In this document: positions 41,490 to 64,000 of the stretch, piece by piece | How positions within the stretch are numbered: the stretch's first letter is position 1 | Layout of the letters: each line of letters begins with the position of its first letter | Origin: Saprospirales bacterium | GTDB taxonomy: Bacteria; Bacteroidota; Bacteroidia; Chitinophagales; Saprospiraceae | Assembly: GCA_007695145.1 (NCBI GenBank) | Contig: REEI01000041.1 | Coordinates: forward strand, 19,339 to 83,338 | Direction of reading: 5' to 3' | Length of the DNA stretch: 64,000 bases | The notes under the pieces: model-generated | The model's input: the letters and a program-made list of their open reading frames with translations, nothing else | What the model was told of the DNA's origin: nothing | The model's database searches: none | Translations under genes and position numbers: made by a program

Positions 41490-41643
41490 CGCTCTGAAAG
41501 AATAGGGGATAGTTCTATCCGGGTTACACCTATTGGTGCCTGCCGGTTTGATTGCTTCTTCTGTTTCTTTCACGCGTTGTATCAATAATAGGTCTGATTG
41601 CAAAAATTTAGCCTAATTAACTTTTAAGTAAAACAACAAACTT

Positions 41644-44600
41644 ATGATTGCCAACATTTACTCGAGAATTAACCGCACCGCCGGATTTGTTACCCTCACT
41701 TGTTTGAGTACGCTCTTCTTTTTGAGTTTGGGAATGAACCAGGTTGAAGCCCAATGTAATACCACACCAGGTGGTTCTGTAACTGTAGATGCCAATGCTT
41801 CCGGCGTTGGATTTTTAAATGCAGCACAGTTGACCGCCAATGGCTGGACTTTAGATGGAGGATTTTTTTGTGGTACCCTCCGCTATTTTGATGGCCCTGC
41901 TCCCGGAGGTGTATTGCTTGGAACGGAATTAATAGGAGTTGGTTCGGGCCTGGCCAGGTCTTGCGGTACTTTCACTATTTGGGTAGAGCAAGCATCTGGT
42001 CCAGCTGGGTTTAACGCGGGAAACAGAGAGCCGGTCACTTTCACGGTCACTGATCCTGTACTAGATCTTCCAGCAGTAGGAGCCTTTGACATTTCCTACG
42101 ACTGCGATGTCAATCCAGGCATTGTCACCACCTATTTATCCAGTATTCAGCTGGATATTGCTGCCGCTTCTTCGAGCAACTGCAATGATATCGATGCGGT
42201 TTGGATAGTGGGATCAGCGGATACTGTATCAAACAGTTGTGTTGGCAATACCAGAGAAGTAATCATTCAGCACCGCTACGAGGTGACCAATAACCATGGA
42301 GTCTCAGAAGATTACTTTGTAAATATAACATATGTTGATAACGAGGCTCCTGAATGGGATGATCCTACAACAGGAGTTTTACCCGGGAACAATGGAGCTA
42401 CATTCGATCCCGGCATCAATAGATTGGTTGTAACTTTGGACTGCAATGATCCTGACTTCGCAGCTAACTTAACAGCCTGGCAGGCATGGCAGCCTTCTGC
42501 AACAGATAATTGTAATCAAAATACTGTGTCAGTTTCTGTATTCAATACGGATGTAGTCAATCCCGGTTGCCCTATCTACGAAAGACAAGTTACCAGATTT
42601 GATGCCTCAGATGGTTGTGTTACAACCACTGCTGGCGAGCGATTTCGATTGTGGCTGAATTTAGTTGACGATCAAGCTCCGGTTATAACTTCTGCTCCAG
42701 ATACAGTAGATGTTTTTACAGCTCCTCCCGGATGGCCAAATTGCCAATATGTTTTCACCGATGAGTTGGATATCACTGCAACCGATTGCAGGACTTTCAC
42801 CTCAGATTGGTCAGTATCAATTGCTACCACCGGAAATATTGTAGACAATGGCTCAGGAACTGGTTTGAGCGCCAATCCCACTTTAGAGGTGGGCGAGTAC
42901 GAAATAACTTACCTAATTGACGATGGTTGCAATCAAAACGATACATCTATATATATACGTGTGATAAATAATAATGGATTGGATGTGACTTGTCCTGCAA
43001 ATCAAGGACCCATTCCGTTTTTATCCAACGGATGCGGAAATACCGCTGTTTGGAACAGACCAGAGGTGACTGGATTTTGTACAGGAAATTACAGTGATTA
43101 TTTTGTAGGTACTACTATAGTAAATTTGGCAAATGGAGACAGTTCAAATGTAGTGGTTAGTCCGATTGATCCCGCTGATACATTGGGCGTAAGTGCCAAT
43201 GTTACAGAAGGAGAATGGGAAGTGGTGTACTACTTTGAGGATAATTTAGGTGATTCGTATACCTGTTCATTTACGATAACTGTGGAAGACGACAGGGCTG
43301 CTGAGTTTACAAGTTGTAATACGCCACCTGATATTGCTGCTTGCGATTCAACCAGAGTGCAGGATTTGGCGCCACAATTGAGATGTCCGGCTTCAGTTGA
43401 CTCTGTAGTACAGTATCCACCTGTAGACATGTATTTGGTTGATGTGCCAGGACTTGTAGTTGCAGATGGAGAAACTTTTGAAGTTACAATTATTTCTTAC
43501 AGTTTATTCAGGTCGGATACTTGTGTAAAAGTAGTTACTTTGAATGAAACGCTCAACGACAGCCCAACAAGAAATGTGGACAGCCTTCCGGCTATTAATC
43601 CAAATACTTTGCTGGCTGCTGGTTGTGGAGCGATAAATATACCAAGACCCACTGCGACTAGTTGTAGTGGAGAAACGATTTATGGAGTTGCAGGCCCTGG
43701 AGGAATTGATTTGTCTGATACCACCAGATGGGTTATCACTGGTGAGTTTAATCTAGCCAACCTGATTTGGACTTACACAGACGGAAACGGTTCTTCTACG
43801 CAGGAACAGGAGATTGAGATTACTTCCGACGAACGCGCCCCTCTTGTAGTATGCCCCAACGATGTTGTAGTAAGTACAGATGCAAACGTTTGTGAGAGGA
43901 CTAATGTACCTGGGATAAATTTAACATATGTGTCGCCCGGTCTGCCCTATACTGAAGGCAACCTTTTATCCCCGGGCCAATATACCGACGATTGTGACCC
44001 TTCACCGGAAGTTTCATATGAAATAAACGGTGTTGGTGGATTTACTCCAGGCAATGATGCTGGAGTAGGAACTTTTGACCTCGGTGTAAATACAGTAACC
44101 TATCAGGTGGAAGATGACAATGGGAATTCCAGTTCATGTACAGTTGATGTAACTGTTGAGGACAATGAACCACCCACCTTTGATTGCCCAACAAGTCAAA
44201 CATTATTTACATCTGATTTGGATTTATTTACGGGAGATTGTTCAATTGAATTTAATGATATGTTTGACCCCACAAATATACAGGACAACTGCGATCCCGA
44301 CCCAACAGTTAGTTGGGCCACACCCGGATTTTTAAATCCGCTTGGACTTACTATGAGTCCATCTTCAGGGAGTACTCTTGATGGGGTAGAGGCAGATATT
44401 TCTCCCAACTTCTTAGGATTTGGTCTGGGTATCGGTCAGGTCACTGTTCAATGGTCTGTTACCGATAATGCCGGGAACAATTCGACCTGTAATGTGACCT
44501 ATGTCATTATTGATGATGAGGATCCCGAAATAGACTGCCCAACTGACATCACGGTTAGTTACATTGCTGATGGTGGTGGAGTTGAGGTTTGTTCATATAC

Positions 44601-47600: not shown

Positions 47601-50600
47601 CGTTATATGTCCTACGGATATTTTAGTAAGTACTGATCCAAACGAATGTACGGCCATACCCAATAATACTACAGGTGTAAATCTGGCGATGACTTTTGTG
47701 GACCCAAGTGGAGATTTTCCTCCCTACCCTCCGACTTCTCTTACAACCGGTGAGTACACCGACAATTGTGACTCTAACCCAACGGTTGAATTCGAATTTT
47801 CCGGAGCGACCGTATTTGGCCCTGCAACCATAGTTGGGAATGATCCGGGCACGCAGGTATTCAATGATGGGACTACTACAGTTACAGTGACGGTAACTGA
47901 TGCAAGCAGTAATAGTGCGAGTTGCAGCTATACAGTAACGGTTGAAGACAATCAAGCACCGTTATTAACTTGCCCTGGTGATCCTATTACAGTTGTGGCC
48001 TTTAACGATCCTGGGGAATGTTTCGCTACAGTGAACAATATTGGAGTGGACGTGGTCGAGAATTGCGCCATAGACACCATCTATTATGAAATATTTTTCT
48101 TAACATCTACTGTTAGCGGGCCTAATGATGCCAGTGGAACGCAGTTTCCGGTTGGTGGATTTTTGAATTATCCTGTCGTCTACACTGCCATAGATACCTC
48201 TGGAAACATTGGTACTTGCACGTTTTTTGTTCAGGTTTTTGACAATGAGCCTCCGGCCATCAATCCTATCATTTGCGATACCACATTCACCAATGATACA
48301 GATTTGGGCTTGTGTACCTACACCCAATCGTTTAACTATGGTTTTGTCGTAACCGATAATTGTACCGATCTTGCTAACCTCACTTTCGAAACAGAGTTTG
48401 TCAACCCTGATGGCAGTGTTTCAATGGTTAATGGTCAAACATTTAACTACGATTTTGAGGTAGGTACAACCGTTGCTACTTTGACTGCAACTGACCTTGC
48501 CGGAAATAGCTCTACTTGTGAAAGCACTTTTGTGGTTGAGGACAACGAGCTTCCAATCATCAACTGCAACCCCAATGATACCATTGCGGGCCTTGCATGC
48601 GAACTCGGAGCTCAGGAATTCGCTTTGGATTTCTCAGACAATTGCGGTGTGGTCCTTGATTCCTTTGCCAGCTTTAATATAGACAACAATGGAGTTCTTT
48701 TGACCGCAGGTGGAGAAATAAAAATCAATGGTATAACCGGTGAACTTTTCTTTACAGCTAATATTTTCGCCGGATTGACGACTATTGAATACACCGTTTT
48801 AGATGTAAATGGAAATGAATCACTCCCATGTGAATTCACGGTGCTTCTGTTGGAGAATTCCAATACAACTGTTGTTTGTCAGCCCACTCCATCGGTGAAT
48901 TTAAATTCAAATGGTGAAGCAAACATACCTTTAAATTTAGTATACTCCAGCCATGATGGCTTCTGTCCCAATCCAACCATTGTTCACAGTCCTACTTCTG
49001 TAGACTGTACCGATGGTGATGATGTATTGGTTACTGTTGTTGTTTCTGACAATGCCGGTAATATTGACAGCTGCCAGACTACTGTTGCAATCAATGACCT
49101 CATCCTGCCAACTGCGGCATGTGTTGACACCTTTACGGCTATCCTGGATTCCAATGGAGAGGTCACCATCACAACTAGTGATATAGATAACGGAAGCGAT
49201 GACAATACTTCGCCTCTTTGTGCCCTAGACCTCTCATTAGATATTGTCAACTTCGATTGTGGTAATGTAGGACCAAATACGGTTGTGCTTACGGTTGAGG
49301 ATGTTTATGAAAATGTGAGCACTTGCTCTGCAGTTGTAAATGTGGTTGATAATGAGGCTCCAAGTATAGTGTGTCCTTCTGATTTGAATGTCGATACAGA
49401 TGCAGGTATTTGTACTCACAATGTAGCAAGCCTCGAACCGGTTTCTGTTAGTGACAACTGTGCCATAGATTCCGTTTCATACGCGATCTCAGGAGCTACC
49501 TCAGGCTCAGGCTTGTCTCCACTTGCGAATGTCGATTTCAATCTTGGCAATTCAACGGTTGTTTTCACCGCCACTGATGTAAGCGGTAACTCTACAACTT
49601 GTTCTGTTTTGGTTGTAGTAACTGACAATGAAGCACCTGTTGCAAATACCGGTATTTGTAATAATGTGGATACCGTAAGTACCGATGCCGGCTTGTGCTC
49701 AGCGGCTATCGATTACGACTTCGTATCCGATGGTTGGTTCTCTGACAATTGCACTTCAAATGAGAACCTTTTCTACTCTGGAGAGATCACCAATCCGGAT
49801 ATGACCACTACTCCTTTCACTGGAGGAGATCCTACACTAACTTTCCAGTTGGGAACTTCTACCCTTACTGTATTTGCTGAAGACGCTGCTGGAAATATCA
49901 GTCTTGCGTGTGTGAATACCATTGAAGTTGAGGACAACGAGCTCCCGGATCCGGGCTGTCCTGCAAATATAGACTTTGGAACTGCAGTTGATTGTGATGC
50001 CACTATCGAGTTGTTCTTTAACCCAACTGATAATTGCGGCCTCGAAGTTGACTCATTCCAATTGACTTTTGACAATTTCGCACAGCAGCCAAATATTCAG
50101 AATTCCGGCTGGAGAAATGGAGTTTTGGGTGGTAATCCTGTATTAGTTGAATTTGGAACCGGTACAACGGATGTTACCTTCTGGGTGGAGGATGTAAATG
50201 GCAATTCCAATTCCTGCACTTTCCAGGTAGAGGTGACAACTGGTAATGACGACCTAAGTATTACTTGTTTTACTGGCAGAACGGTCGAATTAGGAAGTGA
50301 TGGAACTCATACTTTCAGTGGTGCAGATGATTTATTTGGAAATATTATCGGCGCTTGTCCTCCAACACAGACCTTCTTTACTCCTGCATTTGTTGATTGT
50401 CAGGATGGTGATTCTGTAGAGGTTGAAATTATCTATGTAGATAATGCCGGTCAATCGGACACTTGTACCACTACAGTTGCCATTGAGGACAATATTCCTC
50501 CTGTTCCCAGCTGTGTTACTGCTTTGACAGTAGAGTTGGATTCTACAGGTAATCAGTCTATTACAACGGCTGACATTGATGATGGAAGTAATGACAATAC

Positions 50601-53600
50601 TTTCCCAACTTGCCCCTTAGACCTCAGCTTGAATGTAGATCAATTCAGTTGTGCAGACCTTGGACAGGTTGATGTTTGGTTGACTGTTGTAGACGTGTAT
50701 GATAATGTGGACTCTTGTTTAGTTGTAGTTGATGTGGTTGACAATCTCAATCCACAGATATTCTGCCCTGATGATGTAGCTGTTAGTACTGACCTGGGTG
50801 ATTGTACTGCAGTCGTGACCGACATCGCTCCGGATTCAACCTGGGAAAATTGTACCATTGATTCAATCACTTATGTGATTACAGGAGTTACCTCAGGAAG
50901 TGGAAATGATGATGCAAGTGGTTCTGTGTTTGAACTGGGTGCAAGCCTGGTTACTTATACTATTTATGACAATTCGCAAAATTCCACAACTTGTTCTTTC
51001 AGCGTAACTGTTGATGACAATGAGCCTCCTATGATTACTTGTGCAACTCAGGATACTACAGTTGGTACTTCTGAGGACGGTATTATTGGCGATTGTGTAT
51101 TCTCGATCAACGGTGCTAATGCTGCAGGATTTTCTGCATCTGCCACCGATAATTGTGCAATGCCACCAGTAGTAACTCATAATATCTCAGGTCTTGCATC
51201 CAATCAAAGCCTTGTTGGTTTTGATGCACCTCTTGGAACAACTACAATTGTCTGGACTGCTGATGATGGCAATGGCAATACTGCTTCCTGTAGTTTTGTG
51301 CTTACTGTAGAAGATGATGAGGATCCATTTGCCGGATGTCCGGGTAATATTTCAATTACCAATGCAAGCGGCTGTGATGCAACCAGACTTATTTCTGTCA
51401 CCCCAACTGATAATTGTGGTTTGGTGTGGTCTTCGTTTACTGTTGACTTCGATAATGCCGGTACTGGTTTGGTAAATGACCTTGTTCCGGCCTGGCAACA
51501 AGCTCAAGCCAACGGAGAATTATTAGTGGAGTTTGCAATTGGTGAAACTGTTGTTACATACTTTATTGAAGATGAGTCACAGAACTCGCACGAATGTAGC
51601 TTTATAGTAACTGTAACTGAAGGTGATGATACAGGCACTCTCGTATGTCAGGATGAAATTACAGTTGAATTGAATGCAGATGGATATTACGCGTTAAGAA
51701 CAAATGACCTCATAATTGAGCACAATGGATTTTGTTCTCCAATAACTGATATCTTTACTCCTGATACCTTGTTCTGTACAGATGGAGATCAAATAATTGT
51801 AGCTATTGAGTCTTTTGACAATGGTGGAAATAGTGATAATTGTACCGTAATTGTAAATATAGTTGACAATATCAACCCAACAGCAATTTGTCTTCAGTCC
51901 CTAAACGTTTATTTGGATGTTGACGGGCTGGCAGTTTTGGATTCTAACGCCCTTGATGATGGAAGTTTTGACAACACCACCGTTTCAAATCCATCATGTG
52001 ATTTAGACTTCGAAATAAGTCAGAGTGGTTTTGATTGCTCTGATTTGGGTACTTCCACCATTTTCCAGGTAGTAACCGATGTCTACGATAATGTTGATAC
52101 TTGTTATACCAGTGTTACAGTATTGGATACTCTCGCACCTGTTGTTACTTGCCCAATGGATGTTATTGTTGACAATGATGCCGGTGAGTGTTCTGCTGAG
52201 GTGAGTGGTATTGAGCCCCTCGATGTATCTGATAACTGTACTGTTGTGGATACTTCTTTCACCTTTAGTGGTGATTTAATCGGGAGTGGATCTGGAGATG
52301 CCAGTGGAACCGTTTTCCCTGTTGGTACAACTACGGTTGTATATACCATAAGTGATGAATCCAACAATACTTCTAGCTGTGACTTTACCGTAACTGTGAA
52401 TGATGTTGAGGCTCCAGCGATTACCTGTGTTTTAACACCGATCAATCTCGGTACTTCCGAAGATGGTAACCCAGGGGATTGTGTTTATACTGCATCTAAC
52501 GCAGAGTTCGATGCCACGGCTACCGATAACTGTCAATTGGATCAAGTATTCAATAATCTGAATAATACAGCATCACTTGATGGTGAGGACTTTGGATTAG
52601 GCACTCATACCGTAAGATGGTATGCTACTGATATTTACGGTAATATTGACTCATGTGATATTGAGATCACTGTAGTTGACGATGAATTGCCAAATCCGGG
52701 ATGTCCAGGCAATCAATTGTTCTCTAATGCCAGCGGATGTGGTGATGTATATCAAATTGGAATCAATGCATTTGACAATTGTCAATTGGATACTTCCTCT
52801 TTTGCCATTACCTTCAATCGCAGCGATGCTAGCATCGCTAATCCATTGGATAACCATGTTGCAAATGGAAGTGTATTGTTAAACCTTCCTGTTGGTGTTA
52901 CTCAGGTTACCTATTATATAGAAGATGTAAATAACAACGCGAATTCCTGTAGTTTTACCATCGGAGTTACCGTTGGAGATCCAAGTGCAGGAGTTACGCT
53001 GACTTGTCAAAATCCTATCGAGGTTTATCTGGACCAAAATGGTGAGTATGAATTTATCGAGGATGACCTCCTGAATACTATCAATGGTTTCTGTGAGCCT
53101 AGAGTTACTACCATTACCCCTGCAGTCGTTGATTGCGAGGATAGACCTAATCTTACCGTTCAATTGAAAGTTGAAGATTTTGGAGGCAGGATTGATTCAT
53201 GTACCACTTCGGTTACCATTTTGGATACCATTCCTCCAGTAGCCCTATGTCAGGATACGACTGTATATCTCGATGCTCAAGGTTTCGTTAGCATTGATTC
53301 AAGCTTCATCAATGATGGAAGTTTTGACAATGCCGACCTCTGTGGTCTGACTATGGAGCTAAGTGAAAGCAATTTCGATTGTGAAGATGTTGGTGCCAAT
53401 ACTGTCGCACTGACTGTGACGGATGTATTTAGCAATTCAACGACTTGTGAAGCTACCGTAACTGTGGTAGATAGCATTCCACCGACCATTGAGTGCGTTG
53501 CCAACCAGGCTCAGTTCAATGATCCAGGAGAGTGCGGCGCAGTTGTAGATAACCTCGCATTGGTTGTGGCTGACGATAATTGTGCTATTGATACCATTGA

Positions 53601-56600
53601 ATTTACAGTAAGTGGAGATACTCAAGCAGGCGGTGGTGATGATGCAAGTGGAGTTTTCTTTAATGTGGGTACTTCAACGGTTACTTATACTGTGACAGAT
53701 GTAAATAATAATGTTTCTACCTGTAGCTTTGACGTTGTCATTACTGATAATGAAGCTCCTCAGTTTGAAGGACCTTTTGCAAATGGCGATACACTCGTCT
53801 TAACTTCAGGTGACAATGTTTTCTACGAGTGTTTCTACGAGGTGATAAGTACCGAATTTGATCCTGTAGTTACCGACAACTGTGCAGTTGCTGCTGTTTG
53901 GAATGATCTAAACAATGCTTCCAGTCTCGCTGGAGTACAGTTTGCTCCGGGTACTCACGATGTTCGCTGGTACGCTGAAGATATTTATGGAAATATCGAC
54001 TCGATTGATATAGAAATTACTGTAGAAGACGATGAAGCTCCGATAGTTACTTGTGATGCAAATTTTGATCTCAATGCCAACTCTGGATGCGATGCATCTC
54101 GTCAGTTTAATATTGGTTTTGAAGACAATTGTGCAATTGATGCTTCTACATTTGAATACTTTACCGATAATCCTGATGTGAACGAAGTATCTGTTAATAA
54201 TTTAACTGAAAATGGGGTAGAGGTAACTCTTGAATTCCCTGTTGGAACTACCATCGTAGGTTGGGTTATTCAGGATATTTATGGTAACGCCGATACTTGC
54301 TATACTACTGTAAATGTGTTCACTACCAATGGGCCTATTGCTAACTGCGTGGACAACTTTACTGCTATCCTTGACGAAAATGGAGAATATGCTCCAAGAC
54401 CTCAGGATTTGCTTACCAACTATACACCAGGTCAGAGCAGTTGTGGAATTGATACCGTTATGTTCTCACCAGATGTATTGGATTGTTCAAACAGACCTGT
54501 TACTACTGTTGAAGTGACTGTCATGGATGTAGCAGGCTTGACAGATGTTTGTTCTGTTCCTGTAACTATTACAGATACCATTCCTCCTGTCGCTCTATGC
54601 CGGGATACCACAGTTTATTTGGATGCTCAGGGATTTGTCAGCATTGATTCCAGCTACATCAACAATGGTAGCTCTGACAATGCCGATCTTTGTGGTCTGA
54701 CAATGGATTTGAGCAGAATGACATTTGACTGCGATGATATTGAAAACAATCCGATTTCGGTTACCTTGACGGTTACTGATGTGTTTGGTAATTCTTCCGA
54801 ATGCGTGGGTAATGTTGTGGTATTAGATACTGTTCCTCCTGTTCCTGTTTGTCCTGCTAGTGTTGTTCAGGACAATGATATGGGTGAGTGTGGTGCTGTA
54901 GTCAATAACATTGACCTGACTGCCGATGACAATTGTGCAGTAGATTTCTGGAGTTACTCTCTTACCGGGGCTACTCAGGGAAGCGGCTCAGACAACGCCA
55001 GTGGCGAATTCTTTGTAGCCGGTACTACCACAGTGACCTATACTGTAAACGACGTAAATAACAATACTGCCAGCTGTAGCTTCGATGTTACCATCAACGA
55101 TACTGAAAATCCTGTTATCGTTTGTAGCAGTGATACTTTGGTGACTACTTCAGGCGATGGTTTGCCGGATTACGATTGTCTCTATGTAACTCAAGGAGCT
55201 GAATTTGATCCTGTGAGCATTACTGATAATTGTATGGTTGACAGTTGGTCTAATAGTGAAAACGGTCAGGCATCTCTAGCGGGTGTTGCTTTCGAAGCAG
55301 GTACTCATACGGTAACCTGGACGGTGCTTGATACCGCAGGTAATTCCAGCACTTGCGATATTGTAATTGAAGTATTAGATGATCAGGCTCCTGTTTTGAG
55401 CAATTGTCCTTCAGATGTTACGATACAATCAGCAGGTAATTGTGGAACCAACTACAGCTGGATAGTTCCAGACAGTATCGATAATTGTGAAATAGAATCG
55501 CTTACCGTTTCATCAACAAATCGTCCCGGATTCTGGATCAATACCGTTATTCCCGGATTCCACGATGCGGACTTCCCCGTTGGAAGTACTACCATTCAAT
55601 ATATGTTGACCGATACTACCGGTAATGCCGATAGCTGCTCATTTGTAGTTACGGTTACCGGAGCGCCTAACACTCAACAAGGACCTGAAATTACTTGCCA
55701 GAGTGCTCCATACATTGCACACTTGAATACAGATGGTGAGTTTGTGATAGACACCTCTACTTTTGGTGAATATGGAGTTACCATAGTTTCCGGTGAGTGT
55801 CCCATATCTAATAAGTGGGTCGGTCAGCAGGTCTTGACCTGTGCTGATATCCCTCAGGTTCAGGTTACTTTCTTTGTCAATGATGGTGCGGGCAATATTG
55901 ATTCTTGTCAGAAAACCTTTACCATTGTCGACACCATCGCTCCAGTGGCTGCATGCATGGACGCCACTGTCTATTTGGATGCTACCGGCTTCAAGATGAT
56001 TGATGAGACTTATATCGATGATAATTCTTCTGACAATGCCGAAGCATGTGGATTGGATTTTGTCCTTTCTCGAACTACTTTCGGTTGCGTAGATGTTGAC
56101 AATCCGGTAACAGTTACCATGACAGTTACTGATATATTTGGGTTGTCTGACTCTTGTACTGCTGTTGTTACAGTTCTGGATTCTATTGCACCTACTGTGA
56201 TGTGTCCTACTGTTCTGAGCAGCTACATTAATGATATGGGCGAATGTGGAGCGGTAATAGATATGCTTGAACTCGTTGCCAATGACGCTTGCGGTATTGC
56301 ATCCGTTACATGGTCAGCCTCCGGAGCTACCAATGCCACCGGAACAGATGATGTAAGTGGAACCTTCTTTGATGTTGGATCTACTGATGTTACCTACACT
56401 GCATCTGATTCTTCAGGCAATAGTTCTACTTGTACATTCACTATTCAGGTAGATGATATTGAAGCGCCAGTTGTACTTTGTCCCCAGCCTCAGACCAGAG
56501 GTACAGGTGACGACAATGAAGGCTTGTACGATTGCGCTTACACTACTCAAGGTGCTGAATTCGATTATACCGATGTGACAGATAACTGTGCGGTGGATAC

Positions 56601-59600
56601 TTTCTACCACAACCAAAGTGGTGCAGCATCCGCTCAGACACTGGATGGATTTGTTTTTGGCCTCGGTACCACTCAAGTAGTGTGGACAGTTATCGATGAA
56701 GCAGGCTTGTCTTCTACCTGTTCGTTTACAGTAAATGTGAATGATAACGAGGCTCCTGACTTCCAGGGTACCTGTCTGCCTGACACTATCATAGCTTCTA
56801 CTCTCACTTCCTGCGATGCATTGTTTGTATGGACTACTCCTGTAGCCATCGACAACTGCCAACTGGTAAGTACTTCTGAAGAAGCGGTTGATCCTTCCGG
56901 TGCTTCTATATTGGTGTTCCCTAATGGATCTACCAACCGTCAGGCAATGTTCCCTGCAGGTACATCCACGGTAACTTATGTGGCTACCGATGCAGCTGGA
57001 AATAGCACAGAGTGCGAATTCGATGTAACGGTTACCAATTCAGGTTCAGGTCCTATTGCGATCTGTCTGTATGCTCCCGATATCTTTCTGGATGCAAACG
57101 GACAAGCAACCATTGAGCCTGAAGATATTAATCCTACTTACGGAAGTCAAGGCAATTGCCCATTGGCAGACGTTAGTGTGAGTCCATCGCTAATTACTTG
57201 CAGTAACCTGGATGAAGTATTGGTGACCCTTACTGTAGTTGATTTTGCTGGTGGTTCTGACCAATGTCAAGTAACGCTGAATGTAATCGATAATATAGAT
57301 CCCACTGCTGTATGTGATGACTTTACAGTTGCTCTTTCCGCTTCGGGAAGTGCTACTGTAAATGCTACGGATATTGACAATGGAAGCTCTGATAATTGTA
57401 ATATTGTTTCAAGAGAATTGAGCACCGGCGGTAATAGCTGGAGCAATAGCCTCAACTTTGCTTGTGGCCAACTTGGACCAAATGTAGTTTACCTCAGAGT
57501 CACTGACCAAAGTGGAAACTCGGCTAGCTGTGATGCTACTGTAGTTGTTGAAGACAATATTGCACCTGTAGTCAACTGTCCTGCTGATGTTACCGTTGGA
57601 ACCAGCTCTATTGGCTCCTTCGATTGTGTTGGAAGCCATACATGGACCATTCCTACACCTTCTGATAATTGTGGTATCAGCAGCTTCACAGAAATGCTAA
57701 CCGGAAGTACAGTAGCAGGACCGGATAATGTAATGGGTCAAGGTGGTACTTCAACTACTCAAACATTTGAGTTAGGTACTACTACTGTAGTTTATTCGGC
57801 TTCTGATGTAGCGGGTAATAATGCCGATTGTTCATTTGATGTCACTGTTGTTGATGACCAGGCTCCCCAAATCACCTGTCCTTCAGATGCTGTTTTTGCA
57901 ACCTCTGAGGATGGTAGTGGTGATTGTAGCTTTACACTCACCGGTACTGATCTCGACGCAACTGCATCTGATAATTGTTCTGGAATAGGTGCTGTTTCTA
58001 ATGACTTCAATTCAGGCTCAAGCCTGGATGGAGCTACCTTCCCTGTAGGTACTACCACTGTTGAGTGGTCTGTATCCGATGCAACCGGCTCAAACTCTTC
58101 AGCATGTACCTTTACTGTTACTGTTGCAGATGATGAGGGTCCGATCTTTGACTATTGTCCTCCATCTGTGACCATACCTACTGTAGGTCCCGGTGCTTGT
58201 AATAACAATTACACCTGGCAGGCTCCAATGGAAGCGGATATTGATGATAACTGCGGATTTGGTGATTTGACTGTGACTGAATCTGTAAGTTCTCCATACG
58301 GAACGATCACCATCATTCCTACCGGTTATGATCCCACAGATCCAACCAAACAGGAGAGAACAGCGCTGTTCCCGATTGGAACCTCTACTGTATTCTATAC
58401 TGCTGTTGATTTGGCAGGCAACGAAACAGTTTGTTCATTTGATGTAACGGTAACTGAATCTACGCCTCCTGTTGCACTTTGCCAGGATGCTACGGTTTAT
58501 CTCGATGCAAGTGGCACCGCTGCTATTACTCCTGATGATGTGGATAACAATAGTTTCGACAATTGTGAGATCGCATCCATGAGTGTAGATCCTTCTACTT
58601 TCGGTTGTAATGATGTTGGGACTGGTGTTAGCGTAACCCTTACTGTTGAAGATTTCTCTGGAAATACTGCAACTTGTACCAGCACTGTTACTGTTTTGGA
58701 TACTATTCCTCCAATGGCCGCATGTCAGGACATTACCGTCGATCTCGATGGAAGTGGACAGGCAGTGGTTGAAGCTGAGGACGTAGACGCCAATGCCGGT
58801 GGAAATTGCTCTGTAGATTCTTACGAAATATCTACCGATGGTGGCAATAGCTTCCTGTCATCTGCACTATTTACTTGTGCCGATCTGGGCGGCCAATCGG
58901 TTGTACTGATGATTACCGATCAGAACGGAAATGAAGCAACTTGTGATGCAACTGTAACTGTTGAGGATGTTACTTCGCCTCAGATCACTTGTCCTAATGG
59001 TGGATCTGTGGTGACTAGCAACAATGGTACAGGAGACTGCACCGGAAGCTTTACATGGACCGTTCCAACACCGACTGATAATTGTGAGGTCACTGTTCTT
59101 GAGGCTCAACTCTCAGGAGCAACCTCCGGAACCATTGACCAACTGGATATTCTGGGACAGACAGTTTCTGCTGATTTCAATGTCGGAACCACAACGGTTG
59201 TTTATTACACCGAAGATCAGTCAGGTAACACTGCAACTTGTGAAGTAACTGTTGTCGTTACCGATGACGAAGCCCCTGCACTCGCAGGACCTACATCATT
59301 AAGTGTAACGACTTCTGAGGATGGACAACCCGGTGATTGCAGATATACAGTTAATGGCAATGAATTTGATCCAACGAGCTTTGGTGATAATTGTAGCCTG
59401 ACAGCTGTGCCGGTTCACAACTATACTGGCGGTGGAGTTATTTCCAACACTACTCTTTCTAATGCAAGATTCCCTGTTGGAACTACCAATGTGGTTTGGT
59501 CACTTACAGATGATGCAGGCTTAACAAGCAGTTATACCTTAACTGTAACAGTTGCCGATGATGAGGCTCCTGTATTCTTGACTTGTCCTTCTGATAGAAC

Positions 59601-62600
59601 CGTAAATTCTTCAGCCTTTAATTGTAACCAAATTGTGGCCTGGAACCTTCCATATGCAATTTCTGATAACTGTGGTGTAGCTTCTGTTACCGAAGAGTTC
59701 AGCGACCCTGCAGTGAATCCAATTCACAATTATAATTTCTTCAATCAAACTGGTTCAACCGGTACTGCTCTGTTCTCTGCAGGTATTACTACTGTGACCT
59801 ATACTGCTACAGACGTCAACGGATTGAGCTCAGTTTGTGAATTTACGGTAACCGTACTCGATAATCAGGCTCCGGTGGTGACCAATTGTCCTACTAGTGC
59901 TACGATTACTGACATATGCGCAGATACTCCTCTTCCCGACTGGACCGGAACTGTTACGGTTACGGACAATTGTACAGGGAATCAGGAAGTAAGTCAGTAT
60001 CCGGCTGCAGGAACCCTTTTGGGTGATATTGCTGGATTGATCCTCAATGAAGGTCAAACCTTTACCGTAACGGTTACTGCTACCGATCTCAGTCCAAATT
60101 ATCTGTCCGGAAGCTGTAGCTTTGAAGTGACCCTGGTGAATGACGATGTGCCTCAACCGCTTGTACCCGGCCCATTATTGCCAACTACTAACGAAATTGC
60201 CTGTGATGGTAATTCTGCAATAGTTGTTGCTCCTTTGGCCAATATTTCCGGTGGTTGTAATGGACCTTCACAGGTCAGTGCCCAGCTGGTACCCGTTCCA
60301 TCCGGCGTTGTCAACAACGGCAATGGTACTTACACCTTCCCGAATGGCTTTAATGCTATGGTTACCTGGGTTTACACCAACGGTTCAAACGAGGTATCTC
60401 AACTGCAGACTATTGTTGTATCGCCAGACAATAATGCACCTGTTGCTATTTGTCAGACTGCCACTGTTTCCCTGAATGCTATGGGAACCGGTAGCCTTAC
60501 TGCAAGTATGGTTGATGGCGGTAGCTTCGATAGCGAATGTAGCATCGCCTCTAGAAGTGTAAGTCAGACTTCATTTAGCTGTGCAAACCTTGGCACCAAT
60601 ACGGTGACTCTCACAGTTACTGATGAAAATGGTAACAATGCTACTTGTAATGCTACTGTGAATGTTGTCGATAACATCGCTCCTGTTGCTGTTTGTCAAA
60701 ATGCTGTGATCGAATTGCAACCTAATGAAATGGTTACTCTTGATCCGGCAATGATCAACAATGGAAGTTCCGATAACTGTGGTTCTATTTCTCTCGCCGC
60801 AACTCCATCAACTTTTGGTTGTGGTGATACAGGAGTGAATCATGTGATACTTACTGTAACAGATGGTAGTGGAAATACTGCCCAGTGCAGCGCCACTGTA
60901 GTTGTGAATAATAACTTGCCTCCTGCTGTTACTTGTAATGACATCACTGTTCAGTTGAATGGTTCTGGTAGTGCTGCTATTAACCTCGGTATGGTTGCAG
61001 ATATATCAGTGCCTTGTGATGCTAACTTCACTGCTTCTTTGAGCAAAACTAGCTTTAACTGCGGAGATGTAGGCGCCAACACTGTAGTGGTTACTGCCTC
61101 TAACAGCGACAACAATCAGCTTGCTAATTGTACGGCTACCGTAACGGTAGAAGACAATATCGCTCCTGTGATCGTAAGCTGCCCGGTCAACGTCCTGACC
61201 TGTAATGCCGGTGTTGACATTCCTGCGCTTGTTGCTACTGATAACTGTGGAATCGATGACATCACCTATGTACTTTCAGGTGTAACCGAAGGTTCAGGTG
61301 ACGGTTCTGTGGCCATTACTGATGTTAACTTCCTACACGGTGTGACCAATATCAACTACACCGTTACAGATGTTAACGGCAATACTGCTTCTTGTGTGAC
61401 TGTGGTGACTATAGACAATACCTCCGAGCCAACTACTATCTGTATCAATGATCTCAATGTGAATATTGGATCATCTGGTATGATTTCAATTGATGCGGCA
61501 TTCTTCAATGCGAATAGCTTTGATCCCGGATGTCCTGATACGGAATTGTCATACCTGATGTCTGTTAATGGTGGCGATCTTGTCAGTAGTTTTGATTTCG
61601 ATTGCTCTTCTGTTGGTACTAATTCTATTATGCTTCATGCATACGATGGCGCTGGTAACTCAGGTAATTGCCAGACTACTCTGAATGTATTTGATGTTAT
61701 CGCACCTACTGCTGTTTGTAATGCTGGTATTGACGTTTCTCTTGGTACCAATGGTACTGTAGAGATCAATCCTGCAGACCTCGATGGCGGCAGCAGTGAT
61801 AACTGTTTCATTTCGTTCAGCGCGTCTCAAACAGTATTCGATTGTGAGGATATTGGCACCAATAGCGTTACCCTTACCGTGACTGATAGCGGTGGCAATA
61901 CTGCTACTTGTACTACAACAGTTACAGTAGAAGACGATATGCCTCCAGTTGCTATTTGTGACGACCCTGTATTTGTAATTAGCAATCCTAATCACGCTAT
62001 CATACTTGAAGCAGCTGATGTGGACGGTGGAAGCTCTGACAATTGTGGTATTGCTAGCATGAGTGTTACTCCTTCTGTGTTTACCTGCTCAAATGAGGGT
62101 GCCAATCTGGTAGTTCTCACTGTGACTGATAACAATGGCAATGTATCTACTTGTGAAAGTACAGTTACCATTATCTGTCAGGAAGATATCTATGTGGTAA
62201 GTGGTAGAGTTTCTACTGAATATGGATACAACCTGGATCAGGTGGAAGTTACAATGACAGGTTCTAGCAGCCAGTCTATGGTAACAGGTAGCAATGGAAA
62301 CTACACCTTTACTGTTGAGAACGGTAGCGATGTGACCGTAACTCCAACGAGGGATATCGACTATCTGGAAGGTGTTTCAACACTTGACCTCATCTTGATT
62401 CAGCGTCATATTCTTCAGATTGAAGCGCTCGATAGCCCGTACAAGATTATCGCTGCGGATGCTAACAAGGACGACAATCTCAGTGTTGTTGACCTCGTAT
62501 TGTTCCTCAATCTGATCGTTGGAAATATCGACGAACTTCCTGACAATGACTCCTGGAGATTTGTACCTGCTGACTTTGACTTCCCGAATCCCGTGAATCC

Positions 62601-63423
62601 GTTCGAAACTTACTTCCCTGAGTATATTGAATATAGCAATATCACGGAAGATCAGAAAGGTGAGGACTATGTGGCTGTTAAGATCGGTGATGTGACTGAT
62701 GATATCGGTCAGGCTCAGAATGCTCAAAGCAGAGCTTACAGATCACTATTGATTGAAAATCGCGAGTTGAATAGGGGAGAGGTGGTTACCGTACCTGTAA
62801 TGATGAATGGCATCAACCAGGCCGTGGGTTATCAGTTTGGACTGAACTTCAGTACTACTGACCTGCGATTTATGGATGTTCAATTCAACAGTGACCTGAG
62901 CAATATCATGCCGGCTAACTTCTCCGATCGCTTTGCAAAAGAGGGAGTATTGAGAACCAACTGGTTCAATGCATTGTCTCAGGATATTTACAACGGTATG
63001 GAATTGATGACCCTCAGCTTCGAAGTCTTAACAGACGGAATTATGTTGAGCGATGTGATCTCTATGGAGTCTGAAAGAATGCTTCCAGAAGCATACGACA
63101 ACTTCGGTGAGATTTACAACCTGAACGTTGAGTTTATCGAGAGAACTGCTATTGCAGCGGATGCTTTTGAACTGTTCCAGAACCAGCCTAACCCGTTTGG
63201 TACTGAAACCGTCATTGGCTTTGTACTTCCGGAAGAAATGGATGTGACCATCGAAATCATTGATGAGACCGGCCGATTGATAAGAAGCTATGATATTCAG
63301 GCTACTGAAGGCTATAATGCTCTTCGCGTAGATGCTGATAATCTCAGCTCTGGATTATACTACTACCGACTGGTTTCTGATAAGTATCACGCTGTTAAGC
63401 GAATGATACTGCAAAATCAGTAA
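41644..63423 (+). CDS. Giant secreted HYR-type multi-repeat protein with dockerin-like, cohesin-like and T9SS type A sorting domains
   Basis: Uninterrupted 7259-codon ORF. Signal peptide to ...GMNQVEA; dozens of modules with DNC...F..G...V.....D..GN...CSF.V.V.D...P; C-terminus FELFQNQPNPFGTETVIGFVLPEEMDVTIEIIDETGRLIRSYD...LSSGLYYYRLVSDKYHAVKRMILQNQ. Confidence 0.96.
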   Translation: MIANIYSRINRTAGFVTLTCLSTLFFLSLGMNQVEAQCNTTPGGSVTVDANASGVGFLNAAQLTANGWTLDGGFFCGTLRYFDGPAPGGVLLGTELIGVGSGLARSCGTFTIWVEQASGPAGFNAGNREPVTFTVTDPVLDLPAVGAFDISYDCDVNPGIVTTYLSSIQLDIAAASSSNCNDIDAVWIVGSADTVSNSCVGNTREVIIQHRYEVTNNHGVSEDYFVNITYVDNEAPEWDDPTTGVLPGNNGATFDPGINRLVVTLDCNDPDFAANLTAWQAWQPSATDNCNQNTVSVSVFNTDVVNPGCPIYERQVTRFDASDGCVTTTAGERFRLWLNLVDDQAPVITSAPDTVDVFTAPPGWPNCQYVFTDELDITATDCRTFTSDWSVSIATTGNIVDNGSGTGLSANPTLEVGEYEITYLIDDGCNQNDTSIYIRVINNNGLDVTCPANQGPIPFLSNGCGNTAVWNRPEVTGFCTGNYSDYFVGTTIVNLANGDSSNVVVSPIDPADTLGVSANVTEGEWEVVYYFEDNLGDSYTCSFTITVEDDRAAEFTSCNTPPDIAACDSTRVQDLAPQLRCPASVDSVVQYPPVDMYLVDVPGLVVADGETFEVTIISYSLFRSDTCVKVVTLNETLNDSPTRNVDSLPAINPNTLLAAGCGAINIPRPTATSCSGETIYGVAGPGGIDLSDTTRWVITGEFNLANLIWTYTDGNGSSTQEQEIEITSDERAPLVVCPNDVVVSTDANVCERTNVPGINLTYVSPGLPYTEGNLLSPGQYTDDCDPSPEVSYEINGVGGFTPGNDAGVGTFDLGVNTVTYQVEDDNGNSSSCTVDVTVEDNEPPTFDCPTSQTLFTSDLDLFTGDCSIEFNDMFDPTNIQDNCDPDPTVSWATPGFLNPLGLTMSPSSGSTLDGVEADISPNFLGFGLGIGQVTVQWSVTDNAGNNSTCNVTYVIIDDEDPEIDCPTDITVSYIADGGGVEVCSYTASGGEFDFTSVTDNCSANTPTYIITGATNTGGTGSIDGVVLNIGDNNVTWSVSDPQGNTDDCSFTVTVEDDQAPLVDFTTAQECGDTITVVSTSVECNPPISWEQPIFDLSLFECNLVTATRTITGAGVNGPAPAYDVNNDILAYVSAGFNLGATEIVYFFADAAGNDTTCTITVIAEDNTNPQLVACAGSIDLNGICDNIPIGDLRANAAFTDNCISFTVFQSPSPTTTRFDANGGVSLNDGDAITVRVWAEDASGNPSDTCFLTVTFFANDNPIPNVSPLPILNLDNDLDIGCGSVELAAPTATNCNGDVILGVPSGGGALTDVNGDGTLWLIENPTPVTITWTYDNAGNIVSQNQTIQFENNDRDPRVVCFPNQTFSVLSGCTFNPESASSGVLDFTYVSPMIPYSSFSLNPGEYTDICDIDPVVSWEVTGATFGSGTNSNPGNFDYNVGLHTVSVTVADDQGQDATCSFELTVQDNISPAISVPSTTVTLFSNDGGWTGCTYIFDDSFDLEIWGSVSDNCGIASVEWSIPGFVPVFPFINPIAVTPSSSSGVTTLSGLEMDASATSSGFFNGSGTAVIRWTVTDVNGNTSTQDVRFNFIDNTPPDLVCPVDTTVDYSTGGGTSTVCTYTVSGGIFDATVDDNCTVTSFSYAITGATFSVGTGSVDGESLNIGNNTITWAATDGALNASTCSFNVEVVDDLAPEIDFITSQECGDTIRIYSTPTSCNPSVGWEQPILDQSLFDCSNIVSGIRTLTNNIGNPDPYVFNNPGSYNGSSDFALGFGSILYEFEDAAGNITTCELTVEVLDTIPPVLNSCDVTATVNSICDNVNLPSFTGNAAIADNCTALSFFQSPAADTDLIDANGGTSLTDGDQITVLVWATDNSGNVSDTCSITVTFNADSIPVPAVSSLPGINPGNTLEAGCGPLAIDAPIATTCNGDTIYATTGGAGITDLGTTPPSYEFNNFNGNVIWGYDDGFGNVTSQNQNIQVTSDTAAPAVICPTDILVSTDPNECTAIPNNTTGVNLAMTFVDPSGDFPPYPPTSLTTGEYTDNCDSNPTVEFEFSGATVFGPATIVGNDPGTQVFNDGTTTVTVTVTDASSNSASCSYTVTVEDNQAPLLTCPGDPITVVAFNDPGECFATVNNIGVDVVENCAIDTIYYEIFFLTSTVSGPNDASGTQFPVGGFLNYPVVYTAIDTSGNIGTCTFFVQVFDNEPPAINPIICDTTFTNDTDLGLCTYTQSFNYGFVVTDNCTDLANLTFETEFVNPDGSVSMVNGQTFNYDFEVGTTVATLTATDLAGNSSTCESTFVVEDNELPIINCNPNDTIAGLACELGAQEFALDFSDNCGVVLDSFASFNIDNNGVLLTAGGEIKINGITGELFFTANIFAGLTTIEYTVLDVNGNESLPCEFTVLLLENSNTTVVCQPTPSVNLNSNGEANIPLNLVYSSHDGFCPNPTIVHSPTSVDCTDGDDVLVTVVVSDNAGNIDSCQTTVAINDLILPTAACVDTFTAILDSNGEVTITTSDIDNGSDDNTSPLCALDLSLDIVNFDCGNVGPNTVVLTVEDVYENVSTCSAVVNVVDNEAPSIVCPSDLNVDTDAGICTHNVASLEPVSVSDNCAIDSVSYAISGATSGSGLSPLANVDFNLGNSTVVFTATDVSGNSTTCSVLVVVTDNEAPVANTGICNNVDTVSTDAGLCSAAIDYDFVSDGWFSDNCTSNENLFYSGEITNPDMTTTPFTGGDPTLTFQLGTSTLTVFAEDAAGNISLACVNTIEVEDNELPDPGCPANIDFGTAVDCDATIELFFNPTDNCGLEVDSFQLTFDNFAQQPNIQNSGWRNGVLGGNPVLVEFGTGTTDVTFWVEDVNGNSNSCTFQVEVTTGNDDLSITCFTGRTVELGSDGTHTFSGADDLFGNIIGACPPTQTFFTPAFVDCQDGDSVEVEIIYVDNAGQSDTCTTTVAIEDNIPPVPSCVTALTVELDSTGNQSITTADIDDGSNDNTFPTCPLDLSLNVDQFSCADLGQVDVWLTVVDVYDNVDSCLVVVDVVDNLNPQIFCPDDVAVSTDLGDCTAVVTDIAPDSTWENCTIDSITYVITGVTSGSGNDDASGSVFELGASLVTYTIYDNSQNSTTCSFSVTVDDNEPPMITCATQDTTVGTSEDGIIGDCVFSINGANAAGFSASATDNCAMPPVVTHNISGLASNQSLVGFDAPLGTTTIVWTADDGNGNTASCSFVLTVEDDEDPFAGCPGNISITNASGCDATRLISVTPTDNCGLVWSSFTVDFDNAGTGLVNDLVPAWQQAQANGELLVEFAIGETVVTYFIEDESQNSHECSFIVTVTEGDDTGTLVCQDEITVELNADGYYALRTNDLIIEHNGFCSPITDIFTPDTLFCTDGDQIIVAIESFDNGGNSDNCTVIVNIVDNINPTAICLQSLNVYLDVDGLAVLDSNALDDGSFDNTTVSNPSCDLDFEISQSGFDCSDLGTSTIFQVVTDVYDNVDTCYTSVTVLDTLAPVVTCPMDVIVDNDAGECSAEVSGIEPLDVSDNCTVVDTSFTFSGDLIGSGSGDASGTVFPVGTTTVVYTISDESNNTSSCDFTVTVNDVEAPAITCVLTPINLGTSEDGNPGDCVYTASNAEFDATATDNCQLDQVFNNLNNTASLDGEDFGLGTHTVRWYATDIYGNIDSCDIEITVVDDELPNPGCPGNQLFSNASGCGDVYQIGINAFDNCQLDTSSFAITFNRSDASIANPLDNHVANGSVLLNLPVGVTQVTYYIEDVNNNANSCSFTIGVTVGDPSAGVTLTCQNPIEVYLDQNGEYEFIEDDLLNTINGFCEPRVTTITPAVVDCEDRPNLTVQLKVEDFGGRIDSCTTSVTILDTIPPVALCQDTTVYLDAQGFVSIDSSFINDGSFDNADLCGLTMELSESNFDCEDVGANTVALTVTDVFSNSTTCEATVTVVDSIPPTIECVANQAQFNDPGECGAVVDNLALVVADDNCAIDTIEFTVSGDTQAGGGDDASGVFFNVGTSTVTYTVTDVNNNVSTCSFDVVITDNEAPQFEGPFANGDTLVLTSGDNVFYECFYEVISTEFDPVVTDNCAVAAVWNDLNNASSLAGVQFAPGTHDVRWYAEDIYGNIDSIDIEITVEDDEAPIVTCDANFDLNANSGCDASRQFNIGFEDNCAIDASTFEYFTDNPDVNEVSVNNLTENGVEVTLEFPVGTTIVGWVIQDIYGNADTCYTTVNVFTTNGPIANCVDNFTAILDENGEYAPRPQDLLTNYTPGQSSCGIDTVMFSPDVLDCSNRPVTTVEVTVMDVAGLTDVCSVPVTITDTIPPVALCRDTTVYLDAQGFVSIDSSYINNGSSDNADLCGLTMDLSRMTFDCDDIENNPISVTLTVTDVFGNSSECVGNVVVLDTVPPVPVCPASVVQDNDMGECGAVVNNIDLTADDNCAVDFWSYSLTGATQGSGSDNASGEFFVAGTTTVTYTVNDVNNNTASCSFDVTINDTENPVIVCSSDTLVTTSGDGLPDYDCLYVTQGAEFDPVSITDNCMVDSWSNSENGQASLAGVAFEAGTHTVTWTVLDTAGNSSTCDIVIEVLDDQAPVLSNCPSDVTIQSAGNCGTNYSWIVPDSIDNCEIESLTVSSTNRPGFWINTVIPGFHDADFPVGSTTIQYMLTDTTGNADSCSFVVTVTGAPNTQQGPEITCQSAPYIAHLNTDGEFVIDTSTFGEYGVTIVSGECPISNKWVGQQVLTCADIPQVQVTFFVNDGAGNIDSCQKTFTIVDTIAPVAACMDATVYLDATGFKMIDETYIDDNSSDNAEACGLDFVLSRTTFGCVDVDNPVTVTMTVTDIFGLSDSCTAVVTVLDSIAPTVMCPTVLSSYINDMGECGAVIDMLELVANDACGIASVTWSASGATNATGTDDVSGTFFDVGSTDVTYTASDSSGNSSTCTFTIQVDDIEAPVVLCPQPQTRGTGDDNEGLYDCAYTTQGAEFDYTDVTDNCAVDTFYHNQSGAASAQTLDGFVFGLGTTQVVWTVIDEAGLSSTCSFTVNVNDNEAPDFQGTCLPDTIIASTLTSCDALFVWTTPVAIDNCQLVSTSEEAVDPSGASILVFPNGSTNRQAMFPAGTSTVTYVATDAAGNSTECEFDVTVTNSGSGPIAICLYAPDIFLDANGQATIEPEDINPTYGSQGNCPLADVSVSPSLITCSNLDEVLVTLTVVDFAGGSDQCQVTLNVIDNIDPTAVCDDFTVALSASGSATVNATDIDNGSSDNCNIVSRELSTGGNSWSNSLNFACGQLGPNVVYLRVTDQSGNSASCDATVVVEDNIAPVVNCPADVTVGTSSIGSFDCVGSHTWTIPTPSDNCGISSFTEMLTGSTVAGPDNVMGQGGTSTTQTFELGTTTVVYSASDVAGNNADCSFDVTVVDDQAPQITCPSDAVFATSEDGSGDCSFTLTGTDLDATASDNCSGIGAVSNDFNSGSSLDGATFPVGTTTVEWSVSDATGSNSSACTFTVTVADDEGPIFDYCPPSVTIPTVGPGACNNNYTWQAPMEADIDDNCGFGDLTVTESVSSPYGTITIIPTGYDPTDPTKQERTALFPIGTSTVFYTAVDLAGNETVCSFDVTVTESTPPVALCQDATVYLDASGTAAITPDDVDNNSFDNCEIASMSVDPSTFGCNDVGTGVSVTLTVEDFSGNTATCTSTVTVLDTIPPMAACQDITVDLDGSGQAVVEAEDVDANAGGNCSVDSYEISTDGGNSFLSSALFTCADLGGQSVVLMITDQNGNEATCDATVTVEDVTSPQITCPNGGSVVTSNNGTGDCTGSFTWTVPTPTDNCEVTVLEAQLSGATSGTIDQLDILGQTVSADFNVGTTTVVYYTEDQSGNTATCEVTVVVTDDEAPALAGPTSLSVTTSEDGQPGDCRYTVNGNEFDPTSFGDNCSLTAVPVHNYTGGGVISNTTLSNARFPVGTTNVVWSLTDDAGLTSSYTLTVTVADDEAPVFLTCPSDRTVNSSAFNCNQIVAWNLPYAISDNCGVASVTEEFSDPAVNPIHNYNFFNQTGSTGTALFSAGITTVTYTATDVNGLSSVCEFTVTVLDNQAPVVTNCPTSATITDICADTPLPDWTGTVTVTDNCTGNQEVSQYPAAGTLLGDIAGLILNEGQTFTVTVTATDLSPNYLSGSCSFEVTLVNDDVPQPLVPGPLLPTTNEIACDGNSAIVVAPLANISGGCNGPSQVSAQLVPVPSGVVNNGNGTYTFPNGFNAMVTWVYTNGSNEVSQLQTIVVSPDNNAPVAICQTATVSLNAMGTGSLTASMVDGGSFDSECSIASRSVSQTSFSCANLGTNTVTLTVTDENGNNATCNATVNVVDNIAPVAVCQNAVIELQPNEMVTLDPAMINNGSSDNCGSISLAATPSTFGCGDTGVNHVILTVTDGSGNTAQCSATVVVNNNLPPAVTCNDITVQLNGSGSAAINLGMVADISVPCDANFTASLSKTSFNCGDVGANTVVVTASNSDNNQLANCTATVTVEDNIAPVIVSCPVNVLTCNAGVDIPALVATDNCGIDDITYVLSGVTEGSGDGSVAITDVNFLHGVTNINYTVTDVNGNTASCVTVVTIDNTSEPTTICINDLNVNIGSSGMISIDAAFFNANSFDPGCPDTELSYLMSVNGGDLVSSFDFDCSSVGTNSIMLHAYDGAGNSGNCQTTLNVFDVIAPTAVCNAGIDVSLGTNGTVEINPADLDGGSSDNCFISFSASQTVFDCEDIGTNSVTLTVTDSGGNTATCTTTVTVEDDMPPVAICDDPVFVISNPNHAIILEAADVDGGSSDNCGIASMSVTPSVFTCSNEGANLVVLTVTDNNGNVSTCESTVTIICQEDIYVVSGRVSTEYGYNLDQVEVTMTGSSSQSMVTGSNGNYTFTVENGSDVTVTPTRDIDYLEGVSTLDLILIQRHILQIEALDSPYKIIAADANKDDNLSVVDLVLFLNLIVGNIDELPDNDSWRFVPADFDFPNPVNPFETYFPEYIEYSNITEDQKGEDYVAVKIGDVTDDIGQAQNAQSRAYRSLLIENRELNRGEVVTVPVMMNGINQAVGYQFGLNFSTTDLRFMDVQFNSDLSNIMPANFSDRFAKEGVLRTNWFNALSQDIYNGMELMTLSFEVLTDGIMLSDVISMESERMLPEAYDNFGEIYNLNVEFIERTAIAADAFELFQNQPNPFGTETVIGFVLPEEMDVTIEIIDETGRLIRSYDIQATEGYNALRVDADNLSSGLYYYRLVSDKYHAVKRMILQNQ
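43288..47960 (+). repeat. Array 1 in the giant gene: six-module super-repeat of ~1.87 kb, ~2.5 copies
   Basis: Aligned Cys anchors: LLAAGCGAI 43624, LDIGCGSVE 45484, LEAGCGPLA 47377 (spacings 1860 and 1893 nt). Module f recurs as QECGDTITVVSTSVECNPPISWEQPIFDLSLFEC / QECGDTIRIYSTPTSCNPSVGWEQPILDQSLFDC. Confidence 0.88.
47960..59880 (+). repeat. Array 2 in the giant gene: five-module super-repeat of ~1.36 kb, seven full copies plus partial/variant ends
   Basis: First-module Cys anchors at 48877, 50266, 51646, 53005, 54346, 55696, 57064 and a variant at 58480. Spacings 1389, 1380, 1359, 1341, 1350, 1368, 1416 nt. Confidence 0.9.
60439..62180 (+). repeat. Stalk: seven tandem ~80-90 aa modules, mostly one type
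   Basis: Tandem blocks starting PVAICQTATVSL, PVAVCQNAVIEL, PAVTCNDITVQL, PVIVSCPVNVLT, PTTICINDLNVN, PTAVCNAGIDVS, PVAICDDPVFVI; ~249 nt average. Confidence 0.85.
62353..62540 (+). other. Dockerin-like segment (two EF-hand-like loops) within the giant protein
   Basis: DIDYLEGVSTLDLILIQRHILQIEALDSPYKIIAADANKDDNLSVVDLVLFLNLIVGNIDEL: duplicated D-x-D...(S)xxDL-helix pattern, second loop DANKDDNLSVVDL. Confidence 0.75.
62743..63147 (+). other. Cohesin-like beta-sandwich segment within the giant protein
   Basis: LNRGEVVTVPVMMNGINQAVGYQFGLNFSTTDLRFMDVQFNSDL ... LRTNWFNALSQDIYNGMELMTLSFEVLTDG resembles the cohesin consensus (VTVPV...GYQF.L.FD...L.F). Motif-level only. Confidence 0.5.
63166..63420 (+). 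other. T9SS type A C-terminal sorting domain of the giant protein
   Basis: FELFQNQPNPFGTETVIGFVLPEE...IEIIDETGRLIRSYD...GYNALRVDADNLSSGLYYYRLVSDKYHAVKRMILQNQ. Confidence 0.92.
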
Positions 63424-63629: not shown

Positions 63630-64000
63630 TTCTGAATGAATCAGATATAGCATGCCCTTTGAAATAGTTTATCGAATCCTAAAAATATATGCAAGGAATA
63701 GGATACAATGCTGCCAATAGCCAACCGGAAATTTTACACAAGCTAAACATTTGTCAGCCTTGAATTTTTTTATTACTTTTTGTACTTGTGCTGCGCTTGC
63801 CGTACCACTTGTACTGAGTGTTTATCAAAGCACTTGTGCTGAGCGTATCGAAGCACTTGTGCTGAGTGTATCGAAGCATCAGAATCAATAGTAGGAGTGA
63901 ACGCTATTTAGCTGGTAACTTCAGTATAAATCTGGTTGATGATAGGTGGAAGATGAGTAAAAGTTATTGATGCACAATTGAAAAATGATTAGTTATATAT
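63630..64000. repeat. Dispersed intergenic repeat, copy B (runs to window edge)
   Basis: Same ordered blocks as copy A at 37631..37870, plus an extra ~50 bp segment and an expanded 23-bp tandem array. Confidence 0.65.
63783..63876. repeat. Four tandem 23-25 bp units, consensus CACTTGTGCTGAGYGTATCGAAG
   Basis: Units 63783-63805, 63806-63830, 63831-63853, 63854-63876; the last two differ at one position. The unit junction forms the palindrome AGCACTTGTGCT. Confidence 0.9.

Follow-up and report, generated by a model that had tools for sequence, protein, structure and literature searches.

A giant HYR-module protein with a T9SS sorting tail in Saprospiraceae, probably a surface-bound or released rod

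A single open reading frame takes up 34% (21,780 of 64,000 nt) of the stretch of Saprospirales DNA analysed here, referred to below as the window, and it raises the questions of whether so long a frame is genuine and what its product would do. The first-pass annotation of this DNA had described a secreted 7,259-aa protein of roughly 0.75 MDa, made up of dozens of Cys-containing HYR-type modules in an organised repeat hierarchy and ending in a T9SS sorting domain, and had suggested that it was a surface or released adhesin or a matrix filament. The frame is indeed open from its ATG start through all 7,259 codons, with zero internal stops. For the product, a mass of 760 kDa, a pI of 4.05 and a net charge of about -884 at pH 7 were calculated; it includes 273 Cys, and Lys makes up only 0.21% of its residues. 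The coordinates of its parts are collected in Table 1.

Table 1. Features of the giant gene and its product, with positions in the window
Feature	Position	Strand	Basis
Giant ORF, 7,259 aa, 760 kDa, pI ~4.05	41644..63423	+	ORF list and translation; computed properties
Predicted Sec signal peptide, aa 1-36 (RINR n-region, hydrophobic core, VEA/QC junction)	41644..41751	+	Sequence inspection; N-terminal hydropathy maximum
N-terminal region, aa 37-152	41752..42099	+	No Pfam match, no solved relative
Array of ~71 HYR-type beta-sandwich modules, aa 153-6845, mostly 4 Cys each	42100..62178	+	Pfam; self-profile; AlphaFold2 of five modules
Six-module super-repeat (hexad), ~2.5 units, aa 553-2105	43300..47958	+	Module identity analysis
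Five-module super-repeat (pentad), seven tandem units of ~455 aa, aa 2407-5608	48862..58467	+	Module identity; pentad comparison
Carboxypeptidase-regulatory-like (transthyretin-like) domain	62197..62334	+	PF13620, E 4.5e-4, below cut-off here and in scanned paralogs
Dockerin-I-like domain	62374..62502	+	PF00404, E 0.009, below cut-off here, above in paralogs
Cohesin-like beta-sandwich	62764..63039	+	PF00963, 24.9 bits against cut-off of 24.1 (marginal)
T9SS type A C-terminal sorting domain	63187..63408	+	PF18962, 31.4 bits against 27; TIGR04183, 31.2 against 23

Along the body of the protein HYR (PF02494) is the sole Pfam family matched, with E values of 3e-43, 3e-82 and 1e-72 in three overlapping thirds (146, 272 and 241 bits, against a curated cut-off of 21.7), so that the HYR identity first proposed is borne out throughout. 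A profile built from the giant protein itself gives 71-72 matches, of which 67-69 are nearly full-length. When the array is divided into 71 modules, these span 78-124 aa and mostly have four Cys; the first few modules (aa 153-552) are divergent from the rest. The Cys columns are conserved, and the module junctions are rich in D and N, with DN-x-x-P and TDxxGN. The structure prediction of a module tandem that had been suggested at first pass was carried out with AlphaFold2 on one pentad, that is, on five of the ~71 modules, with the other six pentads used as the alignment; the model is all beta, with a mean pLDDT of 89.7. In Foldseek the PDB entries that it matches best are cadherins and protocadherins, together with the tetra-tandem extender from an RTX adhesin of Aeromonas (6xi1, E 2e-14), and the best solved relative by sequence is the SraP adhesin (4m03, E 1e-6). 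The modelled modules are thus confidently predicted to be tandem beta-sandwiches like those of cadherins and RTX-adhesin extenders, a predicted fold that supports a rod or spacer.

Above the level of the single module, the hierarchy seen at first reading stands out clearly from chance. In the pentad zone the mean identity at an offset of five modules is 0.437, compared with 0.323 +/- 0.012 after the modules are shuffled, and in the hexad zone at an offset of six it is 0.434, against 0.311 +/- 0.021; none of the 2,000 shuffles per zone reached the observed identity. Protein identity between pentads tends to drop with distance, from 36-49% for adjacent units to ~31-39% for distant ones, as would be expected from stepwise tandem duplication. 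Where adjacent pentads have identical residues, their third codon positions agree at 0.47-0.54, not far from the 0.42 that unrelated codons would give; the duplications are therefore old, with the frame kept by selection, which argues against recent slippage as well as an error of assembly. A whole pentad is matched within the giant gene alone, other ORFs in the eight genus genomes searched giving partial matches.

A repeat protein near the end of a contig, in an assembly of 144 contigs, could also owe its length to the assembly, through a repeat that had been collapsed, expanded or chimerically joined. The gene is complete, ending 577 bp before the end of the contig, which is also the end of the window. 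The longest exact DNA repeats within it are 20 bp, and the largest DNA tandem array that TRF detected there is 2 x 21 bp, which makes repeat collapse improbable; leader peptide, all of the modules and sorting tail share one frame, and other genomes have independent giants bearing the same tail. With exact repeats of 20 bp or less and synonymous sites near saturation, collapse or expansion of repeats was rejected; a collapse or frameshift behind the length of the ORF is unlikely, and an artefact of assembly in general extremely so. Close to the contig end, at 63784-63878, a 23-bp unit, ACTTGTGCTGAGCGTATCGAAGC, occurs in four imperfect copies; with 3 or fewer mismatches allowed, the window has no further copy, and the unit may be a dispersed repeat at which the assembly broke off.

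The last ~430 aa form a cassette of four domains: carboxypeptidase-regulatory-like, dockerin-I-like, cohesin-like and T9SS tail. The sorting domain claimed earlier is recognised by both PF18962 (Por_Secre_tail) and TIGR04183, each above its cut-off, and the domain scan that had been proposed for dockerin and cohesin brought out both signatures, the former below cut-off in this protein and the latter marginally above. The second dockerin-like loop, DANKDDNLSVVD, has canonical Ca-ligand spacing, while the first is degenerate, and a profile of the cassette matches solved dockerins at E 2e-7. For the cohesin-like domain, the Foldseek matches include solved cohesins, among them 5nrk_A (probability 1.00, TMt 0.66). 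The dockerin region of the cassette model is of low confidence (pLDDT ~40), and the model is too uncertain to support an intramolecular dockerin-cohesin contact. When single-domain matches are included, the 431-aa cassette query has 32 matches in its own genome and 10-23 in genus relatives; at E <= 0.01, the own genome holds 30 dockerin-like and 16 cohesin-like matches, largely on large ORFs. Among named records, the cassette alignment matches mostly Saprospiraceae MAGs, which would place the host in this family, and a scan of named genomes with the unaligned C-terminal 1,259 aa as query gave zero matches. On another contig of the host genome (G000:C37, 9.3-21 kb), a 3,893-aa HYR giant with several cohesin-like matches among its HYR modules directly follows a 2,998-aa HYR ORF. 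HYR giants of the genus at L040 (1765-2538), L041 (1594-2415) and L191 show, by eye, a cohesin-type domain after the signal peptide; judging from these sequences, some giants of the genus may combine an N-terminal cohesin with a C-terminal dockerin in one chain.

At the opposite end of the protein, inspection and the N-terminal hydropathy maximum agree with the secretion signal of the earlier description. With an anchored C-terminus, the region after the signal (aa 37-152) would probably lie farthest from the cell, and no clear ortholog of the N-terminal 552 aa was found among 60 relatives. Of the surroundings of the giant gene, looked at for a sprF-like shuttle gene as in SprB-type adhesins, the upstream neighbour is a carboxyltransferase gene, and downstream the contig ends after 577 bp. 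Window positions 41639-41693, spanning the start codon and the signal-peptide leader, are identical over 55 bp to positions 2131-2185 of L038, a contig of another species of the genus (G004) that ends exactly after these 55 bp, inside the leader; the adjacent carboxyltransferase gene of G004 and the aligned intergenic part show only 77% nucleotide identity, and the longest identical run in that gene is 29 bp. In a genome search, each of the two genomes had a single copy of the leader. It is therefore not a repeated cassette, and the idea of a multi-copy leader or phase variation was rejected; the G004 locus fits an orthologous gene with an unassembled body. HYR-type ORFs, with different N-termini, also start at the carboxyltransferase locus in two further genomes of the genus (G005 and G006), where the contigs end inside the gene. 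Family-wide conservation of this synteny was rejected: at eight other-genus loci, two of these stretches being incomplete, an HYR ORF is found near the carboxyltransferase gene at one (L173), and there a 672-aa reverse-strand ORF separates the two. Elsewhere in the window, at 25714-28533 on the reverse strand, a 939-aa protein combines an MFS-type membrane part with HEAT repeats.

The size of the protein was one of the features thought to set it apart. At 7,259 aa it is certainly very large, and it is the longest product among the ~24 open frames that carry the 135 HYR matches of the host genome (3.7 Mb, 144 contigs, 99% complete), but in this family such HYR giants are usual. HYR is present in 142 of 150 sampled Saprospiraceae genomes, one relative (in genome G115, same family) is a 9,227-aa HYR ORF and others have 5,500-5,900 aa, on which grounds uniqueness by size was rejected. 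The giant is an outsized member of a giant surface-protein family common in Saprospiraceae, and is not categorically new. The host genome also encodes a homologue of the SprA/Sov translocon (2,346 bits).

Quite probably, the gene product is a fibrous rod that is either attached to the cell surface or released; Sec and T9SS would export it, and Ca2+ and disulfides would stiffen it. After crossing the inner membrane by Sec, the chain would leave through SprA, with PorV as its shuttle; a stiffened rod roughly 0.3 um long (71 x ~4 nm) would then result from its many acidic loops and ~130 potential disulfides, Ca2+ binding by the modules being suggested by their motifs and by the similarity of the modelled fold. 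With the C-terminus held at the cell surface, or with the protein released, the rod would act as a spacer, stalk or matrix element that keeps its N-terminal end, or a network of such rods, away from the cell, and, more speculatively, the dockerin/cohesin-like cassette by the sorting tail may pair giants with each other near the surface. Type A CTDs in Flavobacterium go with static anchoring or release, not gliding (PMC12618676), and in P. gingivalis with A-LPS anchoring (PMC9143113). Pfam and NCBIfam gave no catalytic domain, in line with the earlier reading, and no carbohydrate-binding module or ligand-binding domain. Of the role proposed at first pass, the rod or spacer is favoured by the fold match, while adhesion, a function that we infer, has against it both the lack of a ligand-binding domain in these scans and the case of HycP of Clostridium cellulolyticum, a protein with 23 HYR modules that is mainly secreted and whose mutant has no adherence defect (PMC3723904). 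HycP is the one bacterial HYR giant found with a genetic test, and by analogy it would count against an adhesin role.

A gliding adhesin of the SprB type is one alternative to such a rod, given a comparable size (6,497 aa in SprB; PMC9950754), repetitiveness and export by T9SS. The giant, however, has a type A tail, whereas SprB is directed to the gliding machinery by a type B tail; when SprB is given a type A tail instead, it becomes static or is released (PMC12618676). Neither the type B CTD (TIGR04131 / CHU_C) in the Pfam and NCBIfam scans nor the SprB repeat in the Pfam scan was reported for the giant, and this reading is very unlikely. Aureispira is likewise a saprospiral, and the giant might be a predation appendage related to its grappling hook, GhpA. 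The hook protein is also secreted by T9SS (reviewed in PMC11205867), and the pentad model matches the GhpA neck and base (9flp, 9fly) at E ~1e-12, at ranks 19 and 20 in Foldseek; as these matches stand among dozens of cadherin and Ig chains, the likeness is generic. Residues 37-7259, compared in three pieces with the GhpA chains, gave no sequence match at E <= 1, and the pentad and cassette profiles gave no GhpA match at E <= 0.1. Homology to GhpA is not supported by these comparisons, the resemblance being one of fold type only, and a hook of this kind is very unlikely.

It is also conceivable, though unlikely, that the giants of Saprospiraceae form a network outside the cell. Dozens of HYR rods exported by T9SS would serve as its struts and be cross-linked near the surface by Ca-dependent contacts between the dockerins and cohesins of cassette-bearing paralogs; this would be the logic of a scaffoldin applied to a structural matrix and not to cellulose degradation. 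The many dockerin- and cohesin-like matches on large ORFs of the host genome, several cohesin matches falling on the one 3,893-aa ORF, the conservation of the cassette across the genus and the cohesin fold confirmed by Foldseek all favour such a network. Against it are the poorly modelled dockerin region, the degenerate first Ca loop and the fact that a dockerin and a cohesin in the same chain could simply pack together.

At 760 kDa the protein exceeds the 669 kDa of SprB, a standard example of a giant T9SS cargo, and would make a demanding case for the handling of very long, disulfide-rich chains by the SprA pore. Some two dozen HYR ORFs in one 3.7-Mb genome, and the abundance of HYR across the family, have no functional explanation in the literature searched, which gave nothing functional on HYR giants in Saprospirales; the shared dockerin/cohesin tail provides a concrete, testable hypothesis for their joint action.

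Among known systems, SprB of Flavobacterium johnsoniae (669 kDa; PMC9950754) is likewise a giant repetitive T9SS substrate, but has a type B tail, works in the gliding machinery and is built of different repeats. GhpA resembles the giant as a beta-sandwich rod and a T9SS-secreted giant, with no detected sequence homology. HycP (PMC3723904) is also secreted and has a long HYR array, but it is a 250-kDa Gram-positive protein with a CBM3 and no T9SS tail. The RTX adhesin extenders (6xi1) and SraP (4m03) share the tandem beta-sandwich spacer fold and use other secretion or anchoring systems; in the giant, RTX nonapeptide repeats and a T1SS signal had no Pfam match, and a T9SS tail is found instead. 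With scaffoldins and dockerin proteins of the cellulosome type it shares the cohesin domain, by a marginal score and by fold; their dockerins have two Ca loops, and the dockerin-like domain of the giant has one canonical loop and scores below a cut-off that its paralogs pass. The giant differs from them in that the Pfam and NCBIfam scans gave no carbohydrate-binding or catalytic module. The 9,227-aa ORF of G115 is closer, with an HYR array, a pI of 4.05 and, by eye, an equivalent C-terminal tail, though it is longer, has 50 HYR modules recognised by the giant's profile, begins with a different N-terminus and has other gene neighbours, lying next to a RecA-like gene. The other HYR/T9SS type A proteins of Saprospiraceae combine, as the giant does, HYR arrays with the carboxypeptidase-regulatory, dockerin, cohesin and T9SS tail, and what distinguishes the giant from them is its ~71 modules and its hierarchy of pentads and hexads, the whole pentad being unmatched by other ORFs of the genus.
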